Shown here piece by piece: positions 38,937 through 55,677 of a stretch of DNA of 64,000 nt. The notes beneath the pieces were generated by a model. It was not told where the DNA came from and did not search any database. It saw only the letters and a program-made list of their open reading frames with translations. A program made the position numbers and the translations under genes. Source of the stretch: an uncultured Paracoccaceae bacterium (GTDB lineage: Bacteria; Pseudomonadota; Alphaproteobacteria; Rhodobacterales; Rhodobacteraceae); assembly GCA_937895435.1 (NCBI GenBank), contig CALAXT010000024.1:62001-126000 (forward strand). The letters are read 5' to 3'. Numbering within the stretch: the first letter of the stretch is position 1; every line of letters starts with the position of its first letter.

Positions 38937-39365
38937 ATGACGATCCGCTATTTGCACACCATGGTCCGCGTCAAGGATTTGGAAAAATCCATGGCTTTTT
39001 ATCGGCTGTTGGGGCTTGAAGAAACCCGCCGTATGGACAGTGAACAGGGTCGGTTCACCCTGATTTTCATGTGCCCCCCCGGCCAACATGATGCACCGGT
39101 TGAACTGACCTATAATTGGGACGGCGATGATGGTTTGCCCAACGACAGCAGGCATTTTGGGCATCTGGCCTATGAAGTTGATGACATTTATGCCGTTTGT
39201 CAGCATCTGATGGATAATGGTGTGATTTTAAACAGACCGCCCCGCGATGGACGCATGGCGTTTGTCCGCTCACCCGACAATATTTCAATTGAGCTGCTGC
39301 AAAAGGGGGGCGCACGCCCATTGGCCGAGCCATGGACCAGCCTGCCCAATATTGGCCATTGGTAA
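38937..39365 (+). CDS. gloA: Lactoylglutathione lyase (glyoxalase I) GloA
   Basis: A 142-aa vicinal-oxygen-chelate protein with two beta-alpha-beta-beta-beta units and the four glyoxalase metal ligands: His in RYLHTMVRV, Glu in VELTYNW, His in FGHLAYEV and Glu in ISIELLQKG. It converts the methylglyoxal-glutathione hemithioacetal to lactoylglutathione. Preceded by AAAGGAG. The 272-base gap upstream to thyX contains a short CCGGGG/CCCCGG hairpin (38741-38758) and no recognised gene. Confidence 0.9.
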   Translation: MTIRYLHTMVRVKDLEKSMAFYRLLGLEETRRMDSEQGRFTLIFMCPPGQHDAPVELTYNWDGDDGLPNDSRHFGHLAYEVDDIYAVCQHLMDNGVILNRPPRDGRMAFVRSPDNISIELLQKGGARPLAEPWTSLPNIGHW

Positions 39366-39417: not shown

Positions 39418-39933
39418 CTAATTCGGCACAGCCGTTCCGTAAGAAATAACCAAACCAACCAAAGTGGCAATACCGCCCGCCACCAAGGGCAACACCGCCC
39501 CAGACACCAGCCGCAGCCGCGTAAACGACGCCCCCAACAGCGGCACTTCGTAAACAAACACCCGGTGCAGCCCAAAAATAGCCCATGAGGTGATAAACGT
39601 CACAAGCGCTGCAGTTGTGGCACCAGATTTCGCAAAGAGAGCCGCAATGGCAAACGAAATCACAGGCCCCGCTGGCACGATCACACCCGTCAGCGCGGCA
39701 ATTGGCAATGCAATCAGCCCAGCATCTTCGCCTAAAAGTGCCGCAATAGCCTGTTGTGGGATCAATTGCGCCAAGAAACCGGCGCCAAGCAGGGCGCAAA
39801 GCATCCGCGGCACCAATTTTGCGAACTGTTCAACCATCCGCTTTAGCACCGGCCCCGCAGGCTCACGGCGGCGCAGCGCCACGATCACAAGGCCCGTGAG
39901 ACAAATCGACAGCAGGATCAGGCCGATGTTCAT
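39418..39933 (-). CDS. Half-size permease (second of pair, ArsP/DUF318-like)
   Basis: A 171-aa membrane protein with about five hydrophobic segments. The motif VTFITSWAIFGLHRVFVYEVPLLGASF is repeated in the upstream partner (see next entry) as AYITSWAILGMQRVLIWDVPFLGAEF. Members of the ArsP/YraQ-type permease family usually carry two such halves in one polypeptide; here they are in two genes that overlap by four bases. Last gene of the bicupin/Rieske-oxygenase operon. Substrate unknown. Confidence 0.65.
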   Translation of the reverse strand: MNIGLILLSICLTGLVIVALRRREPAGPVLKRMVEQFAKLVPRMLCALLGAGFLAQLIPQQAIAALLGEDAGLIALPIAALTGVIVPAGPVISFAIAALFAKSGATTAALVTFITSWAIFGLHRVFVYEVPLLGASFTRLRLVSGAVLPLVAGGIATLVGLVISYGTAVPN

Positions 39934-40604
39934 GCCCCCTGCCCCTTTTCAGCCACCCCTGCGCCACTCGATGAATTGGCCGCATCGCTCGCACCTGTGA
40001 TCGGTCTTAGCGTCAAGGTCAGCGGGATGTTGCGCGCGATCAGACCGGCCAATATTGGCAAAGGCAGGCTGACCAGGGTCCGCAGAATGGCAAATTCAGC
40101 GCCCAAAAACGGAACATCCCAAATCAGCACGCGCTGCATGCCCAATATTGCCCATGAGGTGATATAGGCCACCATCGCCCCACGATCGGCCCCCGATGCC
40201 CCAAGTACCGCCAGCAACGGATAGGCCGATGATGGGCCACCGGGCGTCAAGGCCCCAGCCACGGTCGCAACAACCAACCCAGCCCATCCGGCCTCAGACC
40301 CGACCAACCCTGAAATCCAGCGTCGTGGCAGCATGACCCAGATCAGGGCGGCAATCGACAGCGCCACCAAAAGGCGCGGCAACAACTTCAGCAACATATC
40401 CAAATCAGATTGCAACGCAGCCCACATGACGTCGGCCCCCCGCACCAAATAGCACGCCACCCCAAACCCAGCTGCCACCAGAAAAAAAATCCAAAACTCC
40501 CACCCAAAAGCATCCGCCAATAAATCAGCCGCCCACGATTTTTCACCCGTGGGGGCAGGATTGACCCGTTTTTTTTGCTGCGAAGGATCAAAGTTGGTTG
40601 GCAT
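39930..40604 (-). CDS. Half-size permease (first of pair, ArsP/DUF318-like)
   Basis: A 224-aa membrane protein with roughly five hydrophobic segments and a polar, Lys-rich N-terminus (MPTNFDPSQQKKRVNP). It shares TSWAILGMQRV and a GALTPGGPSSAYPLLAVLG segment with its shorter partner, which has the parallel GVIVPAGPVISFAIAAL. The two probably form a heterodimer equivalent to one full permease. Metals, arsenicals or small acids are possible substrates; the neighbours favour metal or catabolite transport. Confidence 0.65.
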   Translation of the reverse strand: MPTNFDPSQQKKRVNPAPTGEKSWAADLLADAFGWEFWIFFLVAAGFGVACYLVRGADVMWAALQSDLDMLLKLLPRLLVALSIAALIWVMLPRRWISGLVGSEAGWAGLVVATVAGALTPGGPSSAYPLLAVLGASGADRGAMVAYITSWAILGMQRVLIWDVPFLGAEFAILRTLVSLPLPILAGLIARNIPLTLTLRPITGASDAANSSSGAGVAEKGQGA

Positions 40605-40615
40605 CAGGCAGCGCC

Positions 40616-41107
40616 CTAATGGGAATGACCGTGATGGTGATGATCATGGCTGTGGGAATGATCGTGCTCATGCTCGTGATCCTCATGCGAATGGCCATGC
40701 GCCTCATCCTGATCCCGACGATATTGGGCAGTCAGGCGACCGGTTTCGGCGTGACCTGCCATGAAAGCTTCCATGGCGGCACGAAAAAGATCTGCCTCAG
40801 GCGGCAATTGTCCGGCCAAAAAACCAGCCAAACGGGCAAAGGCGATGGTTTGACTGGCCAAGGCATCAATCGTTTCTTCGGGATCAGCCGCAGCACTGTC
40901 AGCCAATGCGCGGGTCAATCCGGCGTTAAAAAGCTGATCCATGTATCGGGCGCGACCGGCTGCACTGGCCAACGCTTTTGGGCCAGATGTTGGGGATACA
41001 GCGGCCTTTTCTTGCGGATCAGACAGCCCCATCATTCGTGACATGACTTTGAAACGGTCTAGCAGATCTTGACCGATTTGAACGTTGTCATCCAATTCGC
41101 CGCACAT
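40616..41107 (-). CDS. Protein with a His-rich C-terminal tail
   Basis: A 163-aa soluble protein. Residues 1-130 are helical with no recognised domain; the last 27 residues hold about 15 His interspersed with Glu/Asp/Ser (starting HGHSHEDHEHEH), a sink for Ni, Co or Zn. It lies directly after a NicO/UreH-like permease in the operon. A metal store or metallochaperone is likely, but the metal is not determined by the sequence. Confidence 0.6.
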   Translation of the reverse strand: MCGELDDNVQIGQDLLDRFKVMSRMMGLSDPQEKAAVSPTSGPKALASAAGRARYMDQLFNAGLTRALADSAAADPEETIDALASQTIAFARLAGFLAGQLPPEADLFRAAMEAFMAGHAETGRLTAQYRRDQDEAHGHSHEDHEHEHDHSHSHDHHHHGHSH

Positions 41108-41162
41108 ATTGCCACCTTTTTTCTAAAAACCCAAACCGTGCGGCCCAAAGCCTGTGCGCGCG

Positions 41163-41882
41163 CTATTGCGCCAAAGATTGCAGAACCTGACCGTTTTCAA
41201 ACATCACCATGGCCCCGACCCAAAGGGCCGCGCAGCCAATGCTAAGCCCCGTTGCCCGGCGCACCCAAAGCGTGCTGCGCTGCGCGAGGGACAGGGGAAA
41301 ACTGGCCACCATTGAGACCGCCGCCATGCCCGCCATTGACCCCAAACCAAAAACCGCAAAATAGGCCAGCGCTTGACCCAAGGTTTCCGTTGCACTGATT
41401 GTCAGCGCCAGCAGGGCCCCTGAACCGGCAGCCCCATGCACCAATCCAACCACCAAAGCCCGTAGATTGGTGGCACGGTGGGTGTGATCATGCACGCTTT
41501 CGCGGTGCGTGACAGTGTCGGCCGCATGTGAATGCAGATGCAAATGCGCAGCGCCATCATGTTCGTGCACATGGACATGTACGCGATCACGATACATTTG
41601 CCACAATGTTTGGGCACCCAGAAAGACGATCATCACGCCAACCGCAAATTCCAGCCCCGCCTGAACCCGCCCACTGATCGTTAACCCCAAAGCCACCACC
41701 GCCGAACACAGCACAAAAAGCGCCAGCGTGTGCCCCAAGCCCCAAAAGGCACCACGCGCAATCAATGCGCGCCGCCCCCCCTTTTTTGTCAGCATATTTG
41801 AGACGGCCGCTAAATGGTCGGTTTCCAGCGCATGGCCCATACCAATTACAAAGGCCAAGGGCATGATGGCAAACAGGGTCAT
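41163..41882 (-). CDS. NicO/UreH-type nickel-cobalt permease
   Basis: A 239-aa membrane protein with about six helices. The first helix carries GMGHALETDHLAAVSNM, the HxxxxDH signature of nickel/cobalt and urease-accessory UreH permeases. A cytoplasmic loop is strongly His-rich (VHVHVHEHDG...HLHLHSH, about residues 101-135). These carriers move Ni2+, Co2+ or related metal ions. It is followed by the His-tailed protein and preceded by a protein of unknown family. AGGAGAGG precedes its start. Confidence 0.8.
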   Translation of the reverse strand: MTLFAIMPLAFVIGMGHALETDHLAAVSNMLTKKGGRRALIARGAFWGLGHTLALFVLCSAVVALGLTISGRVQAGLEFAVGVMIVFLGAQTLWQMYRDRVHVHVHEHDGAAHLHLHSHAADTVTHRESVHDHTHRATNLRALVVGLVHGAAGSGALLALTISATETLGQALAYFAVFGLGSMAGMAAVSMVASFPLSLAQRSTLWVRRATGLSIGCAALWVGAMVMFENGQVLQSLAQ

Positions 41883-41892
41883 AAACCTCTCC

Positions 41893-42420
41893 TCAGGCGC
41901 GCAGCGCCGTCAGCATTGCGGGGATAAAATCGTTTTCTGACGCGACAACCAAAACCGACGCATAGGGCCGCAGGGCAGCCACGATCCGGTCAACCGAACT
42001 TTTGGACAGACCGTCGGCCAAAACCAGCCCTGCCAGCATGATCTTGCGCTCATAGGCTTCGCGGGCAATCACCTCGGCCGCACCAATGCGGGTATCTGAA
42101 CTGGCCAGCATGACCACAACATCTGCGCCCTTGATCTCGGCCGACAAAAGAACAGCCCGACCATCAGGTGCGCTCAGCGGCAGATCATCAACGCCAGTCG
42201 CATCGGGATCAATTTGCGACGCACCCCCAACAGTCAGAAAATGCGCACCATTCCAAGGATCTTCGGTGATGGCAAACATTGCCTCGGCGGCGCCCGCGTC
42301 CAACGCGAAAATGCGCGACGCGCGGGTCAGTGCATTGGGATAGGGCACCCGAAACCGTGCCTCGGCCGCAGTTGCGGCTTTGGCACAGCTTGAGAGTAAC
42401 GTAGGGCGAACGGTTTCCAT
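41893..42420 (-). CDS. Unknown protein, 175 aa, in the oxygenase operon
   Basis: A soluble 175-aa protein of a kind I do not recognise. It has an alternating beta/alpha pattern, including GADVVVMLASSDTRIGAAEVIAREAYERKI and a C-terminal VIPAMLTALRA-like ending (DFIPAMLTALRA), which gives a Rossmann-like impression but no full GxGxxG motif. It starts eight bases after the Rieske oxygenase and ends ten bases before the NicO-type permease, so it should act in the same process. Confidence 0.55.
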   Translation of the reverse strand: METVRPTLLSSCAKAATAAEARFRVPYPNALTRASRIFALDAGAAEAMFAITEDPWNGAHFLTVGGASQIDPDATGVDDLPLSAPDGRAVLLSAEIKGADVVVMLASSDTRIGAAEVIAREAYERKIMLAGLVLADGLSKSSVDRIVAALRPYASVLVVASENDFIPAMLTALRA

Positions 42421-42427
42421 CTTGGCC

Positions 42428-43714
42428 TCAGACCGACGTTTGCTTGACGCCCGTGCGCACGCGCAGATCGTCTTTCATGGCATCAGCAAAGTTTTCCTCG
42501 GGCGGAAGAACCCGCGCGGCCGACCGGACTAATTGATGCTCGGGCACGCGGCCTGGGGGCATTTCACCCTTATCACGCAACGCAACAGCGGCTTTGCGTA
42601 AGCGATGGCGTGCCATGATGATACCGTTATCTGTCGACACCAGATTTTCTTTGGTGCGATCAACAATCGGGCCCATGCTTTCTTGCAAAGACGCATCCTG
42701 CATCGCGATGCCCCAGATACCTGAATAGGTATCGCCACGGCGCTGCGCGTCACGGTCCATCAAGTAATCATTGTCTTTGTTCTGCAATGGCCGGAACGAA
42801 CCGGGGACGTATTTGTTGTGCACACCATAGCCATCCACCATCGCTTGACGCTCTTCCGTGGTCAGCGCACGCGTGGGATGATAATCAAATGACCACGCCC
42901 AGCAGTTTTCATCATCAATTGGCACCCAGAAATGCCCATGCATCGGGTGATCACCGCGCGGTGGCACCATGGTGAAAGACGGCATGATCCAAGGCGTGAT
43001 GCGCCAATAGTAATGACCCTCTTCAGCCATGCGGCGTGCACCGATATAAAGCCCGCCGTCTGACTCTGAAACTTCAAACACCGGCTTTTTGTCAGCTTGA
43101 TTGTATTTGTTGCCCTTGGCGCCTTTAAACAGCGGATCACTGTTCAGGCTGCCCGAGTGCAGAAACGACACATGGCTGGAATCAATGCCACCTTCCATCG
43201 CTTGCAGCCAATTGCATTCCTGCCAACGCTTTGAGGTAAATGTCTGCTCGGCCGGAACGGTTGCAAATTCCCATGTCGGCTCTGGTGGGCGTGTTTCCTT
43301 GTCGCCCATATGGGTCCAAAGCACATCACCAACCTTGATCAGCGGATAGCCCTTCAGCTTGATCTTTCCGCAAAAGCCTGATTCCTCAGGCTCGGATGGC
43401 ACCTCGACGCATTGGCCGGTATGGTCATATTTCCACCCGTGATAGGGGCAGCGCAAACCGCCCTCTTCATTGCGGCCAAACCACAGTGACACGCCTCGGT
43501 GGGCACAGAACTCATCCATCAACCCATAGCGGCCTTTACTGTCACGAAACGCAATTAGACGCTCGCCCAGCAGTTTCACCCGCACGGGAGGGCAGTCGTC
43601 TTCAGGCAGTTCGCTGGCCAACAGCGCCGGAATCCAATAGCTGCGAAACATCGCGCCCATGGCGGTGCCATTGTCTGTTTGGGTCAGAAGATCATTCACC
43701 TCTTTACGAAGCAT
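42428..43714 (-). CDS. Rieske non-heme iron oxygenase, phthalate 4,5-dioxygenase-like
   Basis: A 428-aa oxygenase large subunit. The Rieske 2Fe-2S ligands are in FCAHRGVSLWFGRN and LRCPYHGWKYD (CxHx16CxxH, near residues 70-90). The mononuclear iron site is expected in the segment SHVSFLHSG and the later Asp-rich region. The sequence follows the phthalate/vanillate O-demethylase branch (single-component alpha subunit), so the substrate is likely an aromatic carboxylate. Its reductase is encoded at 47749-48738 on the other strand. A strong AAGGAGGA precedes the ATG. Confidence 0.88.
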   Translation of the reverse strand: MLRKEVNDLLTQTDNGTAMGAMFRSYWIPALLASELPEDDCPPVRVKLLGERLIAFRDSKGRYGLMDEFCAHRGVSLWFGRNEEGGLRCPYHGWKYDHTGQCVEVPSEPEESGFCGKIKLKGYPLIKVGDVLWTHMGDKETRPPEPTWEFATVPAEQTFTSKRWQECNWLQAMEGGIDSSHVSFLHSGSLNSDPLFKGAKGNKYNQADKKPVFEVSESDGGLYIGARRMAEEGHYYWRITPWIMPSFTMVPPRGDHPMHGHFWVPIDDENCWAWSFDYHPTRALTTEERQAMVDGYGVHNKYVPGSFRPLQNKDNDYLMDRDAQRRGDTYSGIWGIAMQDASLQESMGPIVDRTKENLVSTDNGIIMARHRLRKAAVALRDKGEMPPGRVPEHQLVRSAARVLPPEENFADAMKDDLRVRTGVKQTSV

Positions 43715-43774
43715 CTCAATTCCTCCTTATTCCGGCGCGCATCTGGCGCGACTGGTTCCGAAACTCTGCCGACC

Positions 43775-44890
43775 TTATGACAGCGGCGGCAAGTCTGCTT
43801 TTTCTGCCTCATAGGCGGCATCCATGCGCGGTGCCAATCCGTTTTTGGCCAGCGCATCCGAAAACATTGTTCGGACATCGGCGCTTTCATCGGCATAGTC
43901 AATCTGATCGCCACCAATACGGCTTGAAATCCAGGCCTTTGGTACGCCCTGAGCGTTACGGATCGCGACGCCCTCATATTTGAACGCCAGATAACGCGCA
44001 GGCGTTGTGCCGGTGTTGAAGTGCTGGTGATACCACATGTTTGGCGGCACAATCATTGAGCCAACTTTCCATTCATACCGGGTTGGCGCCTCACCCTCGG
44101 GGTTCATCAGGCTGTAGCCCTCACCCGACAAAATGATCACATGCGCGCCGGGACCGTGGCGGTGACACTTTTTATAGGTGCCAATCGGGAACTGGCTGAT
44201 ATGGCTGTTCATTGAACTTTTGGCCAATTGGAAACGGATATGCCCGCCGCCTGCCCCACGTTCTTTAGCCTCAATCAAGGGCAGGTTAACCGCATCGGCA
44301 ACAAAGTTTGTTTCCATCAACAGACCTTTTTGCTCACCCTGATCGGCAAAGTAATCCGGCTCGCCCGAAAAACGGCCTTTGAAATCATAGGGAGTGTTGA
44401 ACAAAAATTCCGGCTCTTCAAACACATTCAAAAGGGGTGGCATGTTGGTTACGGACACAAAACGTGCAGGCGCACTGCCGGACCCGTTAAAGTGCTGATG
44501 ATGTGCGTTCAGCGGAATACCAAAGATCGCACCGGGGCCCCACTCAAAGCTGGCGCGATCGCCATTGTCATTCCAAACGGTCGTTGACCCACGACCCGAC
44601 AGGATCAAAATCGTTTCCTCATAAAGCTGGCGCTGCGGTGCCAACTTGCTGCCAGCCGGAATTTCCATGACATAGCAGTCATTCGATGTGCGCGATGCAT
44701 CATGGTTGATGAACACGGCATTACCACCCCGCCGCGCCCAAGGCTTCAGCTCGACATCATGCAGGCTGGGAACATAAAGCCCATTGATGATGTCCAGCCC
44801 TTCAGCCGCAATAAAACGCGTGTAGGGCGTTTCTTTCTCAGTTCTGAATTTATCGGCCAGTTTATCGGACACGATGGCGCTCTTAACCAT
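43775..44890 (-). CDS. Bicupin protein (gentisate dioxygenase-like)
   Basis: A 371-aa protein with two cupin domains. The N-terminal one has YEETILILSGRG and NAHHQHFNGSG; the C-terminal one has YKKCHRHGPGAHVIILSGEG and MWYHQHFNTG. The double-cupin layout and length fit gentisate 1,2-dioxygenase and related ring-cleaving or isomerising enzymes. The C-terminal domain keeps the HxH (CHRH) pair; in the N-terminal domain the corresponding residues are Tyr/Glu, so it may bind metal only in one half. Start at ATG 44890 behind AAGGAG. First gene of the leftward operon. Confidence 0.8.
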   Translation of the reverse strand: MVKSAIVSDKLADKFRTEKETPYTRFIAAEGLDIINGLYVPSLHDVELKPWARRGGNAVFINHDASRTSNDCYVMEIPAGSKLAPQRQLYEETILILSGRGSTTVWNDNGDRASFEWGPGAIFGIPLNAHHQHFNGSGSAPARFVSVTNMPPLLNVFEEPEFLFNTPYDFKGRFSGEPDYFADQGEQKGLLMETNFVADAVNLPLIEAKERGAGGGHIRFQLAKSSMNSHISQFPIGTYKKCHRHGPGAHVIILSGEGYSLMNPEGEAPTRYEWKVGSMIVPPNMWYHQHFNTGTTPARYLAFKYEGVAIRNAQGVPKAWISSRIGGDQIDYADESADVRTMFSDALAKNGLAPRMDAAYEAEKADLPPLS

Positions 44891-44984
44891 GACAGCTCCT
44901 TGGGTTTGCCAGCCCGAACCAATCTTTGCGCCGGGCAATTATTTTCGTTGCGTTGACGTTATGCCACAGCTACTGTTCCGTCAA

Positions 44985-44999
44985 TGGACCGGTGGTCCG
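44985..44999. promoter_or_regulatory. Palindromic operator, TGGACCGGTGGTCCG
   Basis: A 5-bp inverted repeat GGACC/GGTCC with a 3-base spacer lies in the bicupin/EutA divergent promoter region, with a half-site GTTCCG at 44975-44980. It shares its layout and ten of fifteen bases with the palindrome at 60609-60623. The IclR protein encoded in the rightward operon is a likely binder. Confidence 0.5.
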
Positions 45000-45019
45000 C
45001 ATAGAGGAACGCACATCCC

Positions 45020-46864
45020 ATGTCAGATAACCGCACCGCACCCGGCAAAAACGCGCCCACCTTAACACAAAGCGCCAACCCCACAGCAGCCACACCCCAC
45101 ACGGTTGATGACCATATGTTTGGCGAATTTTATGCCCATGATCATGACGGTGACGCCGATCATGACCATGACGATATCGATCCCGGCCCCCTAGAAGACA
45201 ACCCGATTTGGCAAAGGGATAACGTCTCACTGACATCTGTCGGCATTGATATCGGCTCGGCAGGAACACAAATTCTCTTTTCCAACATCCATTTGCAACG
45301 GGTGGGTGACAGCCTTGCCAGCCGGTATGTGATTGTTGATCGAAAAACTGTTTATGAATCACCTGTCAGCTTTACGCCCTATGCCGATGCACAAAATATC
45401 GATGGTGCCGCCCTTGGCGCAATTATTGACGCAGCCTATGCATCGGCCGCCGTTCGCCCCAGCGATATTGATACCGGCGTGGTCATTCTGACCGGTGAGG
45501 CGCTGCGGCGCGAAAATGCCCAAGCCGTTGCCGAAATCGTGGCCCGCAAGGGGGGTGATTTTGTCACAGCGACCGCGGGCAATCACATGGAAGCAATGCT
45601 GGCGGCCTATGGTTCGGGGGCTGCCAAGGCCAGTCATGACAAAGCGATGCGCATTCTAAACGTCGATATTGGCGGCGGCACATCCAAGCTGGCATTGTGC
45701 GATAATGGCAAAATCGTCTGGACGGCAGCGTTGCATATTGGTGGGCGTTTGATTGCAACCGACAATGGCCACGTGAGCCGGATCGATCCGGCAGGCCAAC
45801 ACCACGCGCACGCGGCAGGCCACGATCTGACACTGGGCAGCCCTGCAAGCCCCACCATTATGGCCGAAGTTGCCAAACATATGGCCACGCTGCTGACCCG
45901 AGCGATTTCGGGTGGCCCGCTGGACCCCGAGGTTGCAGGGCTGTTTCTTACCGATATTCCAGATGATTTCAGCGATATCGGCGGGGTTATGTTTTCAGGC
46001 GGCGTTGGCGAATATGTGTCTGACCGGGAAACCCGCGACTTTGGGGATTTGGGCCTGCATTTGGGCCGGGCACTGCGGGTATGGGCAGAGGCTGGTGGTT
46101 TTGGGGCAACCCATATGCCAGCCGTGGCTTGTATTCGTGCAACCGCCCTTGGCGCGTCGGAATATTCTGTGCAACTGAGCGGGCAGACCAGCACGATCAC
46201 TGCACCGGGGCGGCTGCTGCCCCGGCGCAGTGTGCAGGTTTTGAAAGCTGACATCGACATGCAGACCCTGCCCGATGCCACCGCCATTGCAAACGCAATC
46301 ATCCGGCATTTTCAAGCCTTTGATCTGTCCGTGGCCGATGATGAGGTCGCGTTGATGTTTGATTACACCCTGCCACCCGATTATGCCTATATTCGGGCGC
46401 TGGCCGATGGCATCGCCACGGCCATGGCGCCACGTCTGTCGCAGGGGCATCCACTTTATGTGATGATCAACGGCGATATCGCGCAGACCATTGGCGGGAT
46501 ATTCCGCGAAGAAATTGGCCTGACGAATGATCTGTTGGTGCTTGATGGCATTGCGCTGCGCGATTTCGACTATATCGATTTGGGCAAGATTCGGCTGCCA
46601 TCGTTCACTGTACCAGTCACTGTGAAATCGCTGCTCTTTTCCGAAGACCCACGCAACCCCGGCCGGGCCGAGCGCATCCATTTCGCCGATCCAACCGAAG
46701 TCGCCAAACGCGGCCATTCACATGGCCACAGTCACGACACTGGCCACCATCACAATCATGGGCACAGCCATGGGCATAGTCATGATCATGGGCACAGCCA
46801 CGAACATGGGCACCACCACGATCACCCCGCCTCTGCCTCCAACCCTTCAGAAAATGGAGGCTGA
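45020..46864 (+). CDS. EutA-like protein with His-rich N- and C-terminal regions
   Basis: A 614-aa ASKHA-fold ATPase homologous to EutA, the reactivase of B12-dependent ethanolamine ammonia-lyase. Core motifs are VGIDIGSAGTQILFSN, ILTGEALRRENA, ILNVDIGGGTSKLAL (phosphate loop) and MFSGGVGEY, and the DYIDLGK...VPVTVKSLLF ending matches EutA. Residues 31-53 are Asp/His-rich and residues about 565-605 hold about 20 His, absent from EutA of enterobacteria. No eutB or eutC is in the window. It may reactivate or metal-load another enzyme; this is inference. Confidence 0.85.
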   Translation: MSDNRTAPGKNAPTLTQSANPTAATPHTVDDHMFGEFYAHDHDGDADHDHDDIDPGPLEDNPIWQRDNVSLTSVGIDIGSAGTQILFSNIHLQRVGDSLASRYVIVDRKTVYESPVSFTPYADAQNIDGAALGAIIDAAYASAAVRPSDIDTGVVILTGEALRRENAQAVAEIVARKGGDFVTATAGNHMEAMLAAYGSGAAKASHDKAMRILNVDIGGGTSKLALCDNGKIVWTAALHIGGRLIATDNGHVSRIDPAGQHHAHAAGHDLTLGSPASPTIMAEVAKHMATLLTRAISGGPLDPEVAGLFLTDIPDDFSDIGGVMFSGGVGEYVSDRETRDFGDLGLHLGRALRVWAEAGGFGATHMPAVACIRATALGASEYSVQLSGQTSTITAPGRLLPRRSVQVLKADIDMQTLPDATAIANAIIRHFQAFDLSVADDEVALMFDYTLPPDYAYIRALADGIATAMAPRLSQGHPLYVMINGDIAQTIGGIFREEIGLTNDLLVLDGIALRDFDYIDLGKIRLPSFTVPVTVKSLLFSEDPRNPGRAERIHFADPTEVAKRGHSHGHSHDTGHHHNHGHSHGHSHDHGHSHEHGHHHDHPASASNPSENGG

Positions 46865-46867
46865 GAG

Positions 46868-47719
46868 ATGGAAACCCAGATCCTTCCGCATGACCCCGCC
46901 GCATCCGAGGCCAAAAAACAGCCAAACCGCAATCCACGGCGCGATTCCGCACGGCTGTCATCCGTGACAACCGCCATCCACCTGATGAAAACCTTTAGCG
47001 CACGCGACGAAGATCTGGGGATCAGCGAATTGGCCAAGCGCCTGGGTGTCGCCAAAAGCACAGTGCACCGCCTGGCCAGCGCCCTGCTGGATGAAGGGTT
47101 GCTGCAACAAAACCCTGAGACGGGCCGCTATTGTCTGGGTGTGGGGCTGTTTACGCTGGGCTCGCTGGTGCGGGCGCGGCTGGATGTTGCCGCGGAATCG
47201 CGCAATATTTTAAACGAATTGCGGGAAAAAACGGGTGAAAATGTCCGTTTGGCTGTGCTGGAACGGCAAAGTGCGGTTCTGCTGCATGATCTGGAAAGCC
47301 CACAGACGTTGCGCTTGCGTTCAGCCACAGGGCAACTGCGCCCCGCCTTTTGTTCGGCCGAAGGGCTTTGCCTGTTGTCAGGCCTGCGTGAGCCTGAATT
47401 GAAAAAGTTTCTAACCCTGCCCCGCGTGGCCCGCATGCCCAACTCTCCTGTAGAGGAAGAGGCACTGCGGCTGCATCTGCGCAAGGTCAAGCGCCAAGGC
47501 TATGCGGTCGAAGACGAAATTTGCGACGAAGGCACGCGTGGAATCGCGGCGCCGATTTATAACGGTGACGGCAGGGTCTTGGCCGCAGTGGGCGTGGCAG
47601 GCCCGCGCGTGCGCATCCGCAAAAGCCAGTTTCCCAAAATGGCGCAAGTTGTCATTGCAGCAGCCGACCAAATCTCTGAGCGGTTGGGCTACAGCCGCCG
47701 TCAAAAAATCTATCTTTAA
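46868..47719 (+). CDS. IclR-family transcriptional regulator
   Basis: A 283-aa regulator. The winged helix is in LGISELAKRLGVAKSTVHRLASALLDEGLL (about residues 54-84) and the effector domain has the AEGLCLLSGL and EEICDEGTRGIAAPIYNGDG segments normal for IclR proteins that sense aromatic acids or their breakdown products (PcaR, PobR). It is preceded by GGAGG and translated just after the EutA-like gene. Likely controls the divergent operons through the GGAAC palindromes, a family trait (IclR sites are of the TGGAA-N-TTCCA type). Confidence 0.9.
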   Translation: METQILPHDPAASEAKKQPNRNPRRDSARLSSVTTAIHLMKTFSARDEDLGISELAKRLGVAKSTVHRLASALLDEGLLQQNPETGRYCLGVGLFTLGSLVRARLDVAAESRNILNELREKTGENVRLAVLERQSAVLLHDLESPQTLRLRSATGQLRPAFCSAEGLCLLSGLREPELKKFLTLPRVARMPNSPVEEEALRLHLRKVKRQGYAVEDEICDEGTRGIAAPIYNGDGRVLAAVGVAGPRVRIRKSQFPKMAQVVIAAADQISERLGYSRRQKIYL

Positions 47720-47748
47720 GTCAGCACACCCAAAAAGGATCCCCGGCA

Positions 47749-48738
47749 ATGGCCAAGATCACCATCGCGCCCGACGGGCAAAGTTTCGACTGTGCCCCCG
47801 GCGACACTATCTTGCGGGCTGCCCTGCGGGCGGGCTTTGGCATGAATTATTCCTGTAATGTCGGGTCTTGCGGCAATTGCCGCTTTGAATTGCTAGAGGG
47901 CGCTGTCACGCATCAGCGGGCAGATTCCCCAGCTTGGTCTGAGAGAGATCTGAAACGCAACCGCTGGCTTGGCTGTCAGGCCGAACCGGTCGGGGATTGC
48001 ACCATCAAATTTCGCGCAGACCCAAGTTTTGTGGCAAACCCCCGCCCGATGGGCCGGTCAGCCACTTTGTTGGCCAAAACCCAACTGACGCGCGACATCA
48101 CTGAATTCACGTTGGAAATTCAAGGTGATGACCGCTTTCATCCCGGACAATATGCGCTTATCGGTGCCAATGGCATATCTGGGGGGCGCGCCTATTCGAT
48201 GGCCAATCTGCCCGGCACCGGACAATGGCATTTTCAGATCAAACGCGTGCCGGGCGGCGCATTGACCGGGTGGCTGTTTGACAGCGCTGAAATTGGCGCA
48301 ACTCTGTCGCTTGATGGCCCATATGGCACAGCGTTTTTGCAAACAGAAATTACCCGCGATATCGTGTTGATGGCTGGTGGTTCTGGCCTGTCCCCGATGG
48401 TGTCGATTGCGCGCGGCGCGGCCAAGGCAGGTATGCTGGACACCCGGAAGCTGCATTTTTATTACGGTGCGCGCACGCAGGCCGATTTATTTGACCCCAA
48501 GCTTTTGGCCGATCTGGGCCCCAACGTCACATTCACCGCTGCCCTCTCTGAACCAGAGCCCGGATGGGATGGCCCGCGCGGATTTTTGCATGACGTGGTT
48601 GCCGCCGATTTAGGCGACCGGCTGCCGGCGCATGAAATCTATTTTGCTGGCCCGGCTGCGATGTCTGCTGCCATTCAGAAAATGGCACATGAATTGGGCA
48701 CCCCGATGGGGCAATTGCATTTTGACGAATTTTATTGA
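47749..48738 (+). CDS. Ferredoxin-NAD(P) reductase of the oxygenase (2Fe-2S/FAD)
   Basis: A 329-aa electron-transfer protein. The N-terminal plant-type ferredoxin has CNVGSCGNCRFEL with a fourth Cys in LGCQAEP; the FAD domain has RAYSMANLP (RxYS) and the NAD domain has VLMAGGSGLSPMVSIA. This order (ferredoxin first) matches phenol hydroxylase, benzoate dioxygenase and naphthalene dioxygenase reductases. It should reduce the Rieske oxygenase at 42428-43714. A second electron carrier (Rieske ferredoxin, 60659-60979) is also encoded. Confidence 0.9.
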   Translation: MAKITIAPDGQSFDCAPGDTILRAALRAGFGMNYSCNVGSCGNCRFELLEGAVTHQRADSPAWSERDLKRNRWLGCQAEPVGDCTIKFRADPSFVANPRPMGRSATLLAKTQLTRDITEFTLEIQGDDRFHPGQYALIGANGISGGRAYSMANLPGTGQWHFQIKRVPGGALTGWLFDSAEIGATLSLDGPYGTAFLQTEITRDIVLMAGGSGLSPMVSIARGAAKAGMLDTRKLHFYYGARTQADLFDPKLLADLGPNVTFTAALSEPEPGWDGPRGFLHDVVAADLGDRLPAHEIYFAGPAAMSAAIQKMAHELGTPMGQLHFDEFY

Positions 48739-48759
48739 TTGGCGCGAAGGAGCCACACC

Positions 48760-49746
48760 ATGGCTAATCTAAATCTGACAATTGGGTGTTGGGATTATGA
48801 CCGCGTTCTGGGCCTGATGGATGGCCGCGTCCGGCCAACGGGTATCGACGTCACATTTCTTAACATGATTGTCGAAGAAACATTTTTCCGCATGCTGCGC
48901 GCGCAGGAATTTGATGTCTCTGAACTGTCGATGTCATCCTATGTCGTGTCGTTATTCAAACCAAACCGGCCTTTTGTGGCGATTCCTGTCTTTCCCAGCC
49001 GGTTTTTTCGCCACTCCTGCATCTATGTGAATGCCGATGCTGGCATCACCAAGCCTGCCGATTTGATTGGCAAGCGGATTGGCACACCTGAATATCAGAT
49101 GACAGCACCAGTTTGGATTCGGGGAATTTTAGATGAACATTATGGCGTGCCGGTGGACAGCGTCACCTATGTTACCGGCGGCGAAGAAGCCCCCAACCGT
49201 GATGAAAAGCTGAAATTGGATCTGCCCGACAACATCAAAGTGGAACGGATCGGCCCCAACCAAACGCTTGCTCAGATGCTGGCCAACGGCGAGATTGACG
49301 CGTTGCACACGGCGCGCAAGCCCTCTAGCTTTGATGGGGTGCGGGTTAAGCGGCTTTTTCCTGACTTTGTACCCGTGGAACAGGCGTATTGGCGTCAGAC
49401 TGGCATTTTCCCGATCATGCATGTGATCGCCATTCGCCGTGAAATTTATGACTCCAACCGCTGGATTGCCATGAACCTTTATCAAGCGTTCAAAGAGGCG
49501 CAGCAGCTGTGCTATGAAGGCCTGCGCGAAACGGCCGCCCTAAAGGGCATGCTGCCGTGGTTTAACGCCCATGTCGAAGAAACATTCGCCATGATGGGCG
49601 AAGATTTTTGGCCATATGGCGTCGAAAAGAACCGCAAAACACTGGAAACATTCCTGCGCTATCATCATCAAAGTGGGCTGTCGCCGCGCCTTTTGGGCGT
49701 TGACGAAATGTTTGCCCCCGAAACCATGGAAGAATTCGTGATATGA
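48760..49746 (+). CDS. 4,5-Dihydroxyphthalate decarboxylase-like protein
   Basis: A 328-aa protein with the length and sequence pattern of Pht5-type 4,5-dihydroxyphthalate decarboxylase, including the ELSMSSYVVSLF and IPVFPSRFFRHSCIYVN segments. The fold is related to periplasmic binding proteins of the NMT1/THI5 type, but there is no signal peptide. The known reaction converts 4,5-dihydroxyphthalate to protocatechuate. Start at ATG 48760 behind GAAGGAG. Its stop overlaps the next gene (ATGA). Confidence 0.85.
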   Translation: MANLNLTIGCWDYDRVLGLMDGRVRPTGIDVTFLNMIVEETFFRMLRAQEFDVSELSMSSYVVSLFKPNRPFVAIPVFPSRFFRHSCIYVNADAGITKPADLIGKRIGTPEYQMTAPVWIRGILDEHYGVPVDSVTYVTGGEEAPNRDEKLKLDLPDNIKVERIGPNQTLAQMLANGEIDALHTARKPSSFDGVRVKRLFPDFVPVEQAYWRQTGIFPIMHVIAIRREIYDSNRWIAMNLYQAFKEAQQLCYEGLRETAALKGMLPWFNAHVEETFAMMGEDFWPYGVEKNRKTLETFLRYHHQSGLSPRLLGVDEMFAPETMEEFVI

Positions 49747-50564
49747 CCCAAATCACCCTGCCCCTTTTGTATGAGAAAAAGCGCAACGGCGAAAAGATCT
49801 TTGGCGTGGTGGCTTGGGATACCCATATGGCCGCGATTGCTGACCGCGTGGGTGTTGATATTGTGTCGGTCGGCGATACGGTCGGCAAAAACATGTGGGG
49901 CCATGACAACCCGCTAGAAGTCACAATGGATGAGATGATCGTGGTCACCAAAGCGGTGCGGCGGGGCGTGAAACATGCGCTGGTCAGCGCTGACTTTCCC
50001 TATGGTCCACTGCAACAAGGCGTTGATGCCGCTGTGCGTGCGGCTATCCGCTTTGTCAAAGAAGCCGGGGTTGATATGATCAAACTTGACGGTGCAGCCG
50101 ATTACCCCGAAGCGGTCACCGCGCTGACCCGCGCCGGCGTTCCGGTTTGGGCACAGTTTGGCCTGACCCCGCAAACCGCACTGTCACTGGGCCTGCCTTA
50201 TGAAAATCAGGCCGGTGGCGCGGCACAACTGCCCGCCGAAATGACCGATCGGATGATCAAAGAGGCGCAGATGTTAGAAGCCGCTGGGGCGGCACTGCTT
50301 GATTTCACCAACTCGGGGCCCGTGGTTGGCCCTGCCGTGGTGGCATCGGTAAAAATTCCTGTGATTGGCGGCTTTGGTGGCGGGCCATGGCTGGATGGCC
50401 GCGTGCGGCTGGCACAAGCGGCGGTGGGCTATAGTGTGGGCGCACTGGACAAAGCCCCCGATACCTACGCCAACGTGGCCCGCGTGATCCATGACGCGCT
50501 CACAGAATGTGCAAGCGACGTGCGCGCCGCGCGTCAAATCAAGGGCCAACCGGGGAGAGTGTGA
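49743..50564 (+). CDS. PanB-like protein with altered active site
   Basis: A 273-aa TIM-barrel protein similar to 3-methyl-2-oxobutanoate hydroxymethyltransferase over its whole length. By alignment with E. coli PanB the two metal Asp are kept (residues 45 and 84) and the Lys of VKIEGG is kept (114), but Glu114 becomes Asp (116), His136 becomes Gln (138) and the general base Glu181 becomes Thr (189). It is therefore unlikely to make ketopantoate and more likely works on another 2-oxo acid as an aldolase or lyase. It lies between a decarboxylase and a hydrolase, coupled to both. Confidence 0.82.
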   Translation: MTQITLPLLYEKKRNGEKIFGVVAWDTHMAAIADRVGVDIVSVGDTVGKNMWGHDNPLEVTMDEMIVVTKAVRRGVKHALVSADFPYGPLQQGVDAAVRAAIRFVKEAGVDMIKLDGAADYPEAVTALTRAGVPVWAQFGLTPQTALSLGLPYENQAGGAAQLPAEMTDRMIKEAQMLEAAGAALLDFTNSGPVVGPAVVASVKIPVIGGFGGGPWLDGRVRLAQAAVGYSVGALDKAPDTYANVARVIHDALTECASDVRAARQIKGQPGRV

Positions 50565-51418
50565 TGCCATTTGCAACCATCGACGGATTGGATACGCATT
50601 ACCAAGATCTGGGCCAAGGCCCGGCGTTGCTGATGTATTCACCCGGTGGGTTTGATGCACAAATCAGCAAATGGTCTGATCTTGGTGTCTACAAGCGGAT
50701 CAAGCTGCTGGACCACCTGCCAAAACATTTCCGCTGCATCGTCTTTGATCGGCGCGAAAATGGCCTGTCGCAGGGCCGGGTGGAGCGGATCACCTGGCAA
50801 AGCTATGTGCGCCAAGGCGTGGGCTTGCTGGATCATTTGGGAATTGACCGCGCGCATGTGATGGGCGGCTGCATGGGGTGCAGCCCCGTCGCGGCGTTTG
50901 GCGTGGCCCACCCGAACCGCACCCGATCAATGGTGCATTTTTGGCCCGTGGGTGGGCCCAGCTATCGCATTTCCAGCCACCAGCGCTTTGCCCGCCATCT
51001 GGCCTTTGTCGAAGAAAATGGCCTGCAGGCCGTGGTTGATCTGGTGCGCAGCCATGACAAGAATTTTTCTGCAGATCCTCGGGGGGGGCCTTGGGGCCAG
51101 CCGATCCGCAACAGTCAAGACTTTGCCACCGCATATGCAGACCAAGACAAAGCACGGTATTTGTTAACCGTCACCGCCATGTATCGTGGCCTGATGGATC
51201 GCGACACCGCCCCCGGTGCCGAACCTGAAGACCTGATGACACTGAATATCCCCAGCCTGATCGTGCCCGGTGCCGACGGGTTTCACTCAACCTCGGCGGC
51301 GCGCTACATGCAAGAATGTCTGGCCGGATCAGAGTATTGGGATATCACCCCAGATGATCTGACCGAAGAAAACGCCCCAGCCCGGATCACGGCATTTCTG
51401 AAAGCTCTGAGGGACTGA
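50564..51418 (+). CDS. Alpha/beta hydrolase with Cys nucleophile elbow
   Basis: A 284-aa alpha/beta-hydrolase with the nucleophile motif VMGGCMGCSPVAA, i.e. G-x-C-x-G with Cys rather than Ser, as in dienelactone hydrolase. The acid region GADGFHST follows. A C-C or lactone-cleaving role in the aromatic pathway is plausible, since lactones such as 2-pyrone-4,6-dicarboxylate arise on the 4,5-cleavage route. The ATG overlaps the PanB-like stop by one base. GGGGAGAG precedes it. Confidence 0.8.
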   Translation: MPFATIDGLDTHYQDLGQGPALLMYSPGGFDAQISKWSDLGVYKRIKLLDHLPKHFRCIVFDRRENGLSQGRVERITWQSYVRQGVGLLDHLGIDRAHVMGGCMGCSPVAAFGVAHPNRTRSMVHFWPVGGPSYRISSHQRFARHLAFVEENGLQAVVDLVRSHDKNFSADPRGGPWGQPIRNSQDFATAYADQDKARYLLTVTAMYRGLMDRDTAPGAEPEDLMTLNIPSLIVPGADGFHSTSAARYMQECLAGSEYWDITPDDLTEENAPARITAFLKALRD

Positions 51419-51467
51419 CCCCCAGAGCACTTGGCCCAAAGCGCAAAGTCACAAGCCTAACCGCAGC

Positions 51468-52412
51468 CTAGCCCACCAATTCGCGGGTCTCAGGCGCAAA
51501 GAGATCAGCAATCGCCATCGGTTGGGCAATCACACCCTGCCCAACCACCTGATCCATCAGCATTTCAAGCACATGCTGATTTGGCGCAATGCCATAAGGC
51601 AGGGGATCATCCATCACCTCAAGGGCGGCCTGATGCACGCGGTCGGCGGCGGTCAAGTCTGATATCCGCCCAGCCTTTAAATCATTGACATAGAGTGCTT
51701 TTGACGCGGCAAAGCTTTCGAAAAGCTGGGTAGCAAGACCCGGGTTTGCAGCAAGAACCTCATCCTTGACCACAACCAAATGGTTGATCGGATAAAGCCC
51801 CCGCTCCCGCAGGGCGGTGCGCGCGGCATTAAACGCATCAGGGATCATTGGGCCGATATCGGCATGGTCAAGTTTGGTCCCAACAACCCCCGCAAGTTGA
51901 CCCGACACCAGCGCATCTGTCAGATCTTCGTCGGGGCCCAAGTTCTGTACATTGGCCGGGTTCACAAAGCTTGCAACATGTTCATCACCCGACGGTGCCC
52001 AGTGCACCTGCGTTAGGTCAACATCATGTTCTTGCTGCAAAATTGTGCGCGCCCATACGCCTGTGGTTACCGTGTAGCCCCGGTTTACCCCAACCCGCTT
52101 CCCCTCAAGATCTTTCAACCCCGACAGCGGCGTGCGCGTGTTCCAGACCATATTGGCGTGATGAAAATCGCGCACCAAAAAGATTGGCAGCGCTGTGAAT
52201 TTTACCCCATGTGCCCGCGCCGTGATATAGGTTGTCAGCGCCATCTCTGACACGTCATAGGCCAATTCGCGCACCATCCGGCGAAAGCCCTTGACCAACA
52301 CCGGCACCTCTTCAAAAGCCAAATCAAAATCAGCCGGACAAATTTCACCTGCTTTCAATGCGCGGTTGTTGCCCTGAAGCCGGGTGACAGTCTTTAGCGT
52401 GGGTCGGGTCAT
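51468..52412 (-). CDS. Second 4,5-dihydroxyphthalate decarboxylase-like protein
   Basis: A 314-aa paralogue of the protein at 48760-49746. The segments YDVSEMALTTYITARAHG and LPIFLVRDFHHANMVWN correspond to DVSELSMSSYVVSL and IPVFPSRFFRHSC. Overall identity looks modest, so the two may act on different aromatic acids. It is on the opposite strand from the main catabolic genes, converging with the Cys hydrolase. Start at ATG 52412 behind AAGAGGC. Confidence 0.78.
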   Translation of the reverse strand: MTRPTLKTVTRLQGNNRALKAGEICPADFDLAFEEVPVLVKGFRRMVRELAYDVSEMALTTYITARAHGVKFTALPIFLVRDFHHANMVWNTRTPLSGLKDLEGKRVGVNRGYTVTTGVWARTILQQEHDVDLTQVHWAPSGDEHVASFVNPANVQNLGPDEDLTDALVSGQLAGVVGTKLDHADIGPMIPDAFNAARTALRERGLYPINHLVVVKDEVLAANPGLATQLFESFAASKALYVNDLKAGRISDLTAADRVHQAALEVMDDPLPYGIAPNQHVLEMLMDQVVGQGVIAQPMAIADLFAPETRELVG

Positions 52413-52434
52413 ATCTGTGCCTCTTGGGTGAAAT

Positions 52435-52722
52435 TTAGCAACACTCATCTCCAAAATCGCGCAGGGCCGGGCGCATCCAAGCCAGCGGCATGTCTGCCAC
52501 CTGTACCTCGGCCACCGGTTTGAAAAACACGATCTTGAAACGTTCTTCTTCATGCCAGAACAAAACCGTGGTTTGCAAGGGCGGGAAACCGGGCCATCGG
52601 CCAGGGTCTTGACTGACCATCACCAAATCATGCGAGGTCAGATCAAATATAGATCTGGTCCAGCCCTCAACCCGTTCAAGACACGCCAAATTTTCTTGCG
52701 ACGGCACCACGCGGCCAAACAT
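52435..52722 (-). CDS. Small conserved protein, about 95 aa
   Basis: A short protein beginning MFGRVVPSQENL with a WPGFPPLQTTVLFWHEEERFKIVFFKPVAEV core and an ending of two Cys (DFGDECC). I recall, from memory only, that proteins of this general pattern can sit beside CobW GTPases, and a CobW gene lies about 1.2 kb away on the other strand. The start is uncertain: ATG 52722 is spaced six bases from AAGGGG, and ATG 52728 is also possible. A much longer in-frame extension to 53010 is not credible. Function unknown. Confidence 0.55.
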   Translation of the reverse strand: MFGRVVPSQENLACLERVEGWTRSIFDLTSHDLVMVSQDPGRWPGFPPLQTTVLFWHEEERFKIVFFKPVAEVQVADMPLAWMRPALRDFGDECC

Positions 52723-52782
52723 TTTCATCCCCTTGCGGTCGCCCCACCCTGTGGGCCAGATTCTGACCGACGTTCTGATATG

Positions 52783-52797
52783 CGGAACATTGTTCTT
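52783..52797. promoter_or_regulatory. Operator-like palindrome, CGGAACATTGTTCTT
   Basis: A near-palindrome GGAAC-ATT-GTTCT lies between the small protein and the divergent alcohol dehydrogenase gene, matching the 60609-60623 palindrome at thirteen of fifteen positions. It is placed to control the dehydrogenase-cobW-ligK-ligJ operon. Confidence 0.5.
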
Positions 52798-52853
52798 GCC
52801 TGCAGTCTGCCCATTTGTTAGCCAAAGATCAACGCAGATTTGGAGGTTTCGGC

Positions 52854-53957
52854 ATGCGCGAGAAAGTTTTAGCCGCGGTTCGCACGGGGCCGCAACGCAC
52901 CGAATTTCGTGAATATGATATGCCCGAAATCGAGGACGATGCGGCGCTCTTACGGGTGGAAGTGGCCGGGATCTGTGGCACAGATGTGAAATTTTATGCC
53001 AAGCCGCCAATCGATGATCCCGTCATCATGGGGCATGAAAATATTGGTGTCATCGCAAAGGCGGGCGCCACATTCAAAAAGCGCCGTGGTCTTAAAGAAG
53101 GTGATCGGGTGTTTGCCGAACATTACGTCGGCTGTATGAATTGCGAACACTGCCATCGCGGCGATTATCGCCTGTGCATTGCGACTGATTGGCGTAAAAA
53201 TCCTGACGGTATCCGCTTTGGCTATACCTCGGCGCTGCGCGCCCCGCACCTTTGGGGGGGCTTTGCGCAATATATGTATCTGCCGTGGAACTCGGTCATT
53301 CACAAAGTGCCCGATGGGCTGTCAGCCGAACTGGCAGGCGTGGTGACGCCAATGGCCAACGGTATTCAGTGGGCACTGTTTGATTGTGGTGTGGGCTATA
53401 ACAGCCGCGTTTTGATCCAAGGGCCAGGCCAACAGGGTTTGAGCCAGGTTGTGGCCTGCAAACAGGCGGGCGCGTCGTTGATTATCGTCACCGGCACCTC
53501 CAAAGATATCAAACGCATGGATGTCGCCCTGAAATTGGGCGCAGATTATGTGATCAATGTCCAAACCGAAGACCCGATTGCCCGCATTGCCGAAATCACT
53601 GGCGGCGAGGGTGTCGATGTGGCGCTTGATTGCACCGCAGGTGCTGGCACCATCCCTACCCTTTTGGGGATCGAGGCGCTGAAACGCAAAGGTGGTACGC
53701 TGCTTATTCAGGGTGAAATGGGCGACTTCCCCAATTTCCCGCTGGCCAAAGTGGCCAACAAATATATCACCATCAAAGCCGCGCGTGGGCACAATTACCA
53801 ATCATGTGAGTTGGCGCTGCAACAGTTGAATTCGGATCGGTTCCCCCTCGATCTGATCACCACGCATCGCTTCGGCCTGAAAGACACCGATGCCGCGATC
53901 AAGGCGGTTGGCAACAGCGGCGATGTGATCCATGTCTCGCTGATGCCTTGGGACTAA
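52854..53957 (+). CDS. Zinc-binding alcohol dehydrogenase (MDR)
   Basis: A 367-aa medium-chain dehydrogenase. Catalytic zinc ligands are Cys in VAGICGTDVKFY and GHEN; the structural zinc site is CMNCEHCHRGDYRLC (C-x2-C-x2-C-x7-C). The Rossmann motif is QGPGQQGLSQVVACK. It probably oxidises a hydroxy or aldehyde intermediate, for example a 4-carboxy-2-hydroxymuconate-semialdehyde-like product, although LigC itself belongs to a different family. First gene of the operon to cobW, ligK and ligJ. RBS TGGAGGT precedes ATG 52854. Confidence 0.88.
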   Translation: MREKVLAAVRTGPQRTEFREYDMPEIEDDAALLRVEVAGICGTDVKFYAKPPIDDPVIMGHENIGVIAKAGATFKKRRGLKEGDRVFAEHYVGCMNCEHCHRGDYRLCIATDWRKNPDGIRFGYTSALRAPHLWGGFAQYMYLPWNSVIHKVPDGLSAELAGVVTPMANGIQWALFDCGVGYNSRVLIQGPGQQGLSQVVACKQAGASLIIVTGTSKDIKRMDVALKLGADYVINVQTEDPIARIAEITGGEGVDVALDCTAGAGTIPTLLGIEALKRKGGTLLIQGEMGDFPNFPLAKVANKYITIKAARGHNYQSCELALQQLNSDRFPLDLITTHRFGLKDTDAAIKAVGNSGDVIHVSLMPWD

Positions 53958-53960
53958 CGC

Positions 53961-55667: not shown

Positions 55668-55677
55668 GAGAGCGGAC

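Follow-up and report, generated by a model that had tools for sequence, protein, structure and literature searches.

The window, by which we mean the whole stretch of 64,000 nucleotides analyzed here, contains a gene for a EutA-type protein with histidine-rich ends, whose immediate neighbours are a divergently oriented bicupin gene and a gene for an IclR-type regulator. The start of the bicupin gene lies 129 bp from the EutA-type gene, across a divergent promoter region. The features of this part of the window are as follows:

40616-41107, minus strand: poly-His-tailed protein of 163 residues without a match in Pfam or NCBIfam, seen at 11 of 80 related loci
41163-41882, minus strand: NicO-type nickel/cobalt permease with a His-rich loop (PF03824)
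41893-42420, minus strand: protein of 175 residues, no Pfam or NCBIfam match, recurring in related clusters
42428-43714, minus strand: Rieske oxygenase of the LigXa_C type (Pfam)
43775-44890, minus strand: bicupin, the inferred partner enzyme, 371 residues from the ATG at 44890, with two Cupin_2 stretches
44021-44164, minus strand: His site of the C-terminal cupin (H242, H244, H249, H287 and H289; from the alignment)
45020-46864, plus strand: EutA-type ASKHA ATPase with His-rich ends, 614 residues (PF06277, 371 bits, residues 71-540)
45158-45172, plus strand: N-terminal DHDHD motif (residues 47-51; from the alignment)
46712-46825, plus strand: poly-His tail (20 His in 38 residues; from the residue count)
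46868-47719, plus strand: IclR-type regulator, 3 bp downstream of the EutA-type gene (profile match)
47749-48738, plus strand: ferredoxin-NAD reductase (profile match)
53961-54947, plus strand: CobW-family GTPase of the metallochaperone type with a short His run (profile match)

The cluster also encodes an RraA-type protein and an Amidohydro_2 protein, labelled LigJ-like (both by Pfam), and two proteins labelled NMT1-like (48739-49746, with Pfam matches below the cut-off, and 51468-52553, with no Pfam match). The presence of the Rieske oxygenase, the reductase, the RraA-type and the Amidohydro_2 proteins suggests, as far as sequence can tell, that the cluster serves the breakdown of an aromatic acid, and the reductase is likely the electron donor of the Rieske oxygenase. 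An earlier note, made from the letters of this DNA only, had placed the NicO permease, the His-tailed protein and the CobW GTPase beside the EutA-type gene. All three are present and carry His runs, but with distances of ~3.1, 3.9 and 7.1 kb the word is a loose one, and the His excess in the CobW GTPase is slight (P 0.014). Genome-wide, PF03824 matches nothing but this NicO gene.

Several further genes of the window recur elsewhere. Relatives of the 175-residue protein were found in 26 of 80 loci, including Streptomyces ones. Two half-size ArsP_1-type permeases (39418-39933, below the Pfam cut-off, and 39930-40604) overlap by 4 bp, both recur (each at 9 of the 80 loci) and are possibly another metal transporter. 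Two small single cupins (59203-59811 and 59808-60395) likewise overlap by 4 bp; 27 of 110 loci contain relatives of them, often two or more. A protein of the Glyoxalase/dioxygenase superfamily (38733-39365) has no known role.

The comparisons below rest on three overlapping sets of sequences. The first consists of genomes of the same class, where 48 of 385 exceeded the Pfam cut-off for EutA; we counted only the 11 that carry EutA-type genes of >300 bits, up to four per genome, as the others are short stretches of at most 37.5 bits. The second comprises 80 relatives, one of them from an Acidobacteriota genome and the others from Proteobacteria and Actinomycetota, and as these are the best 80 of at least 574 stretches, the set is biased towards close kin of the window protein. 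The third is a set of 110 orphan EutA loci (L004, L034-L060, L061-L140, L153 and L154), with several loci per genome; the relatives and the class set overlap in it, since L119 and L045, whose contigs are equally long (224,754), look like one locus. ORF starts were not refined, which leaves some EutA frames over-long (L064, L066, L118, L133 and L138), and neighbour searches with a single sequence undercount distant members.

The window protein covers positions 3-474 of the 475 positions of the EutA profile, and in alignments of 22 and 44 rows its ATPase motif residues are invariant or nearly so. DIGSAGT, DIGGGTSK and FSGGVGEY, which we take to be nucleotide-binding motifs, fall mostly in invariant columns. 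This agrees with the earlier note, which had ascribed to the protein a full set of EutA ATPase motifs, a tail of about half histidine and an N-terminus rich in Asp and His; the tail counted above spans residues 565-602, and 12 Asp and 6 His fall within residues 1-63. With a mean His content of 2.2% in the 25 other ORFs of the window, the His excess of the whole protein has a P of ~6e-10. At the N-terminus D47, H48, H50 and D51 are kept in at least 90% of 44 rows, and a motif of the D-H-D-H type precedes the core in 80 of the 110 orphan EutAs. A tail with six or more His after the core was found in 59 of the 80 relatives (the best 80 of at least 574 stretches) and in 64 of the 110 orphan EutAs, the other 46 having no His tail. 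The 21 relatives without it are all Actinomycetota, as titled, and several of these have N-terminal His runs instead. In the predicted structure (mean pLDDT 75.6) the ATPase core is fairly confident, and residues 1-43 and most of 564-614 have a pLDDT <50. Structure comparison gave PPX/GppA exopolyphosphatases, dehydratase activators, MreB and EutJ among the nearest solved structures, and both the fold and the phosphate-binding motifs fit membership of the ASKHA (actin/Hsp70/hexokinase) superfamily. When solved structures were searched by sequence, only short ASKHA stretches were matched.

EutA is reported to remove damaged cobalamin from its enzyme in a reaction that needs ATP, letting fresh cofactor bind (PMC5821096). 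Relatives of the window protein are named accordingly in deposited annotation, and it may be argued that the protein acts as a true EutA, with ethanolamine ammonia-lyase or some other B12 eliminase as its client. We give this explanation almost no weight. The earlier note had seen no ethanolamine ammonia-lyase genes in the window, and this absence extends to EutB in the whole source genome (99.7% complete), where no match was found; nor was EutB found in any of the 11 class genomes with EutA-type genes of >300 bits. EutB is absent from the genomes of 71 of the 80 relatives and present in nine (5 of 50 and 4 of 30), in one of them (G421) as a weak split match only, and none was seen in the flanks examined around the 80 relatives' loci (up to 9 kb, many shorter). 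The two observations named beforehand as refuting a new role, a dependent eutBC in the source genome and the His-tailed form being always beside eutBC, both fail so far. Four of the EutB loci (L142-L145, ~4 kb each) contain EutC and no EutA, so that an unlinked orphan EutA could serve EutB there; L191-L194 lay outside this check. Since EutB is missing from most EutA-bearing genomes, such service cannot be the general role of the orphan EutAs, and for the source genome we reject it.

The loci of the other kind behave differently, with EutB in all eight (L148-L152 and L155-L157), for three of them also by annotation. In a tree of 69 rows, 60 orphan rows and nine EutBC-linked rows fall on the two sides of one branch with an SH-aLRT support of 97. 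This tree used 69 of 120 rows and includes one EutBC-linked row (L152) on a very long branch; a first FastTree of all 120 rows also kept 111 orphan rows together, with a printed support of only 0.08 after re-rooting. The separate side of the tree speaks against a genuine EutA, as does the best NCBIfam EutA equivalog model, of which the window protein reaches 299 of the 598 bits required. A diol dehydratase was also considered as client and rejected, as its large subunit was not found in 10 of the 11 EutA-bearing class genomes; the remaining one (G306) has a partial match of 43 positions in a frame of 134 residues.

What does accompany the EutA-type gene is the bicupin. The source genome has two bicupins (E 1e-10) and two EutA-type genes, each EutA beside one bicupin. 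The second EutA-type gene, at 126073-127659 of the contig and 73 bp outside the window, has no His tail, overlaps the second bicupin gene by 4 bp (L004:14073-15659 and L004:15656-16870) and is set with it between two groups of tripartite tricarboxylate transporter genes. A bicupin was present in all 11 EutA-bearing class genomes, two of which, G381 (two bicupins and two EutAs) and G122 (one of each), resemble the source genome, while the other eight have more bicupin matches than EutA-type genes. In a sample of 372 class genomes, nine had a bicupin and eight of these also had EutA-type genes of >300 bits; in the ninth (G226) the EutA match is a 26-bit fragment of the N-terminus at a contig end, ~100 bp from the bicupin. 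The co-occurrence gives a Fisher value of ~3e-18, or 1e-15 without the fragment, with shared ancestry ignored. Three bicupin-bearing genomes (G378, G381 and G382) are not among the matches of this sample and were evidently not drawn into it, since bicupins are known in them and none was matched.

Outside the class set the picture is the same. A bicupin match of >100 bits lay in the stretch at 63 of the relatives' 80 loci (three of them only edge fragments), and the remaining 17 loci come from genomes that likewise have a bicupin, with best matches 68-77% identical to that of the window, so that all 80 relatives, being the best 80 of at least 574 stretches, come from genomes with a bicupin. In a plasmid collection, the four records with a bicupin (E 1e-20) are exactly the four alphaproteobacterial (Sinorhizobium/Phyllobacterium) ones among the 23 EutA records (E 1e-40); of the other 19, three were examined, all of them haloarchaeal and all with eutBC. 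The two genes are also close, as a bicupin lies within 250 bp of EutA at 23 of the 29 class-set loci, two of these (L043 and L056) being contig-edge fragments, and the bicupin cluster (85 ORFs from 70 of 110 loci) has a median distance of 131 bp from EutA. At four loci (L036, L039, L048 and L050) UbiD and small single cupins lie near EutA and no bicupin does, and these single cupins may stand in for it. Their shared row consists of the UbiD decarboxylase, EutA, NicO (in three of the four) and the small single cupins. At L041, a contig edge, and at L049 neither a bicupin nor UbiD and single cupins were seen.

The two families also match at the level of subfamilies. In each of the six genomes that have a His-tailed pair and another, the bicupin of the His-tailed EutA is 72-100% identical to that of the window, versus only 29-41% for the bicupins of the other EutAs. 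Over 69 pairs, EutA and bicupin distances correlate with a Mantel r of 0.63 (best of 999 permutations 0.19), a correlation that could be obtained from joint inheritance alone. Bicupins without EutA nearby are many, as illustrated by 31 stretches from the same genomes and by one genome (G113) with 15 bicupins and two EutAs. Near EutA-bicupin pairs of several lineages (L129, L154, L107 and L195) we also observed chromate-transporter genes, identified by PF02417 or by annotation.

Taken together, these observations document the pairing of EutA-type and bicupin genes well. The earlier note had proposed asking what co-occurs with EutA homologues of this type in the absence of eutBC, with a Rieske oxygenase and the bicupin among the candidates. 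The bicupin came up to this, present in all EutA-bearing genomes tested and usually near by, and EutB was mostly absent, but a Rieske oxygenase was found at only 33 of the 80 loci. It is for this reason that we regard the bicupin as the likely client. That the EutA-type protein instead repairs or matures the Rieske oxygenase, or some other enzyme of the aromatic pathway, appears very unlikely to us. The Rieske oxygenase gene is close in the window as at those 33 loci, and a small Rieske-type ferredoxin gene (60602-60979) lies ~3.1 kb from the second EutA-type gene. Still, 47 of the 80 loci have no Rieske oxygenase, with the reservation that a single-sequence search may undercount, and the second EutA-type gene overlaps a bicupin gene amid TctABC genes, where none of the ORFs of at least 150 residues is a Rieske oxygenase.

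The chemistry of the bicupin can only be approached through its predicted structure and its conserved residues. The model (pLDDT 89.8) was nearest by VIA-align to salicylate/gentisate 1,2-dioxygenases (Z ~20.9 over ~266 residues), with the manganese cupin MncA and oxalate decarboxylases at Z 18-20, MncA being ~1.2 Z below the best, whereas Foldseek ranked MncA and oxalate decarboxylases first. Because of this preference and of the small gap in Z, the kinship to the ring-opening dioxygenases is loose. A search of solved structures by sequence gave weak cupin and chance matches only, and the NCBIfam scores stayed far below the cut-offs (gentisate model, 18.7 of 442 bits; 5-aminosalicylate model, 30.6 of 650). 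In residue numbers counted from the Val codon at 44887 (alignment A2), H242, H244, H287 and H289 are present in 51 of 51 aligned bicupins and H249 in 41 of these; H242 and H244 are missing from 4 of 62 EutA-adjacent bicupins of a wider set. The alignment thus makes a His-only metal site in the C-terminal cupin likely. The metal-site histidines are the same in EutA-free and EutA-adjacent bicupins, and no metal-site signature that parts the two groups was found. A residue that does differ is W105, present in 60 of 62 EutA-adjacent versus 9 of 41 EutA-free bicupins, where Glu is the commonest; the meaning of this is unknown.

No match to models of other ring-opening dioxygenases was found among the genes scanned (39418-56700), yet the dioxygenase-superfamily protein at 38733-39365 exists, and the bicupin is therefore merely a candidate for the ring-opening enzyme, no more. 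Most likely it acts as an oxygenase in the pathway fed by the Rieske oxygenase, on a substrate that is unknown. The EutA-type protein could itself be an enzyme of the pathway, not a helper, namely a kinase of the ASKHA type or an ATP-dependent activating enzyme that acts on the substrate or product of the bicupin. Successive steps of a pathway would also give the co-occurrence of the two genes, the ASKHA fold is a general one with exopolyphosphatases and dehydratase activators among the nearest structures, and 46 of the 110 orphan EutAs have no His tail. A kinase, on the other hand, leaves the His-rich ends and the nickel genes described below unexplained. Nearly the whole EutA profile is matched, the known member of which is a reactivase (PMC5821096). 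Furthermore, the Rieske, TctABC and UbiD genes vary from locus to locus, and EutA and a cupin stay in most of them. We therefore consider such an enzyme unlikely, and we cannot exclude it.

Genes of nickel metabolism occur at a minority of the orphan EutA loci, with NicO in 21 and NikR in 6 of the 110 and neither in 88. The profiles for NicO, NikR and CobW in this count were built from matches in the same loci; Pfam confirmed NicO in L048, L096, L125 and L129 and NikR_C in L125 and L153. By comparison, 31 bicupin stretches without EutA from the same genomes, chosen by hand from the list of bicupin matches, contain no NicO and no NikR, and one has a CobW gene. The nickel genes thus seem to go with EutA, and the contrast is small (NicO in 4 of 28 EutA loci vs. 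0 of 31 EutA-free stretches, P 0.045). Of 50 loci with genome-wide NicO counts, 12 have NicO vs. 0.32 expected from the number of NicO genes per genome; these chance figures are too small, since the relatives share ancestry. Clear gene orders were found in several lineages. The Phyllobacterium zundukense cluster runs from a Rieske oxygenase through ferredoxin, class II aldolase, cupin and EutA to a HoxN/HupN/NixA nickel/cobalt transporter and nikR. Its plasmid carries a further bicupin-EutA pair, with neither NicO nor NikR in the annotated stretch, and a putative metal transporter of the YjbE type lies ~1.1 kb on. At the betaproteobacterial L121, L125, L127 and L131, EutA is followed after 24-132 bp by NicO and then by NikR and CobW, and at L039, L048 and L050 (three genomes of one genus) NicO overlaps a tailless EutA or lies 10 bp from it.

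We also scanned for NikR operators (GTATGA-N16-TCATAC, at most two mismatches) and found none in the window. The only site with one mismatch lies upstream of nikR in Phyllobacterium (L153), and as shuffling predicts more sites (2.0 and 30.4) than the totals of 1 and 16 that were found, the scan gives no support and a NikR operator in the window was rejected. For the family, nickel is inferred from the minority of loci that have NicO or NikR. With that limitation, nickel or cobalt is the metal suggested by the linked genes, a point that goes beyond what the earlier note had read from the window.

The nickel genes are commoner by tailed EutAs (18 of 64) than by tailless ones (4 of 46, P 0.015). 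This fits the idea that the EutA-type protein chiefly stores or buffers metal for the cluster, its ATPase domain serving assembly only, and so does the presence of a poly-His tail, a His-tailed 163-residue protein, a permease with a His-rich loop and a CobW GTPase in one cluster. It is the ATPase core that is conserved, while the tail varies and is missing from 46 of 110 members, and a mere store is in our opinion improbable. The nickel-linked EutAs of L039, L048, L050 and L153 have no His tail.

The reading we favour, as somewhat more probable than all else, is that the window protein belongs to a EutA branch that works with another client, as a reactivase or maturase of the adjacent bicupin. 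The earlier note had seen in it a factor that reactivates, or inserts metal into, some other enzyme of the aromatic pathway; our results support this as to the placement and the kind of role, the activity remaining an inference, and they suggest the bicupin as the enzyme that the note had left unnamed. By analogy with EutA and ethanolamine ammonia-lyase, the EutA-type ATPase would open the bicupin at the expense of ATP and would remove a damaged or wrong metal, load the right one, or both. The D/H-rich N-terminus and the poly-His tail may hold the metal for transfer to the bicupin. The metal would most likely be nickel (cobalt is possible) delivered by the linked NicO/HoxN permease, and CobW and the His-tailed 163-residue protein may be helpers in some lineages. 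Contact between the two proteins, ATP-driven opening, metal transfer, nickel and the substrate are all inferred, without any biochemistry. In its most specific form, an ASKHA ATPase descended from EutA would insert nickel into a nickel-dependent bicupin oxygenase and rescue it, with its own supply (NicO/HoxN, NikR) and a GTPase helper (CobW) in some lineages, as a widespread and apparently undescribed system. This form we put forward only tentatively, as a possibility that may well prove wrong.

A search of the open-licence literature gave no paper that links EutA to a cupin; in PMC4996985 and PMC5924519, "EutA" denotes an ectoine enzyme. With at least 574 stretches found as relatives of this EutA branch in one scan, labels such as "ethanolamine ammonia-lyase reactivating factor" may often be wrong in environmental Proteobacteria and Actinomycetota. 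If our reading is true, the principle of the EutA reactivase is not tied to vitamin B12 and has found a second use with a metal-dependent cupin, and cupins too can be served by dedicated helpers driven by ATP. To our knowledge, cupins are usually thought to load their metal unaided, and we know of no earlier dedicated NTP-driven metallation factor for a cupin. It would also provide a candidate nickel enzyme in the aerobic breakdown of aromatic acids.

Four known systems invite comparison. With EutA, the reactivase of ethanolamine ammonia-lyase, the window protein shares PF06277 nearly end to end and the same ATPase motifs, at an identity of ~34% to the E. coli protein, but it differs by its bicupin partner, its D/H-rich N-terminus and its poly-His tail, by a genome without EutB and by its place on the other side of the tree. 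The bicupin has the fold of gentisate/salicylate 1,2-dioxygenases, yet it is only ~12% identical to them and its invariant His set lies in the C-terminal cupin, whereas the known enzymes use the metal-site His of the N-terminal cupin. Nickel-dependent acireductone dioxygenase and the nickel quercetinase QueD are cupins that use nickel, as the bicupin may; these are single-cupin subunits, and no dedicated ATPase partner of either is known to us. HypB, UreE and CooJ, finally, are His-rich nickel chaperones with a poly-His segment and, in some, an NTPase domain. The window protein likewise combines a poly-His segment with an NTPase domain, nickel genes lie near some EutA loci, and the linked nickel transport (or NikR) expected of such a chaperone is present in the window as NicO. 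In contrast to the EutA-type protein, these chaperones lie outside the ASKHA ATPases, and they serve hydrogenase, urease and CO dehydrogenase, none of which is a cupin.
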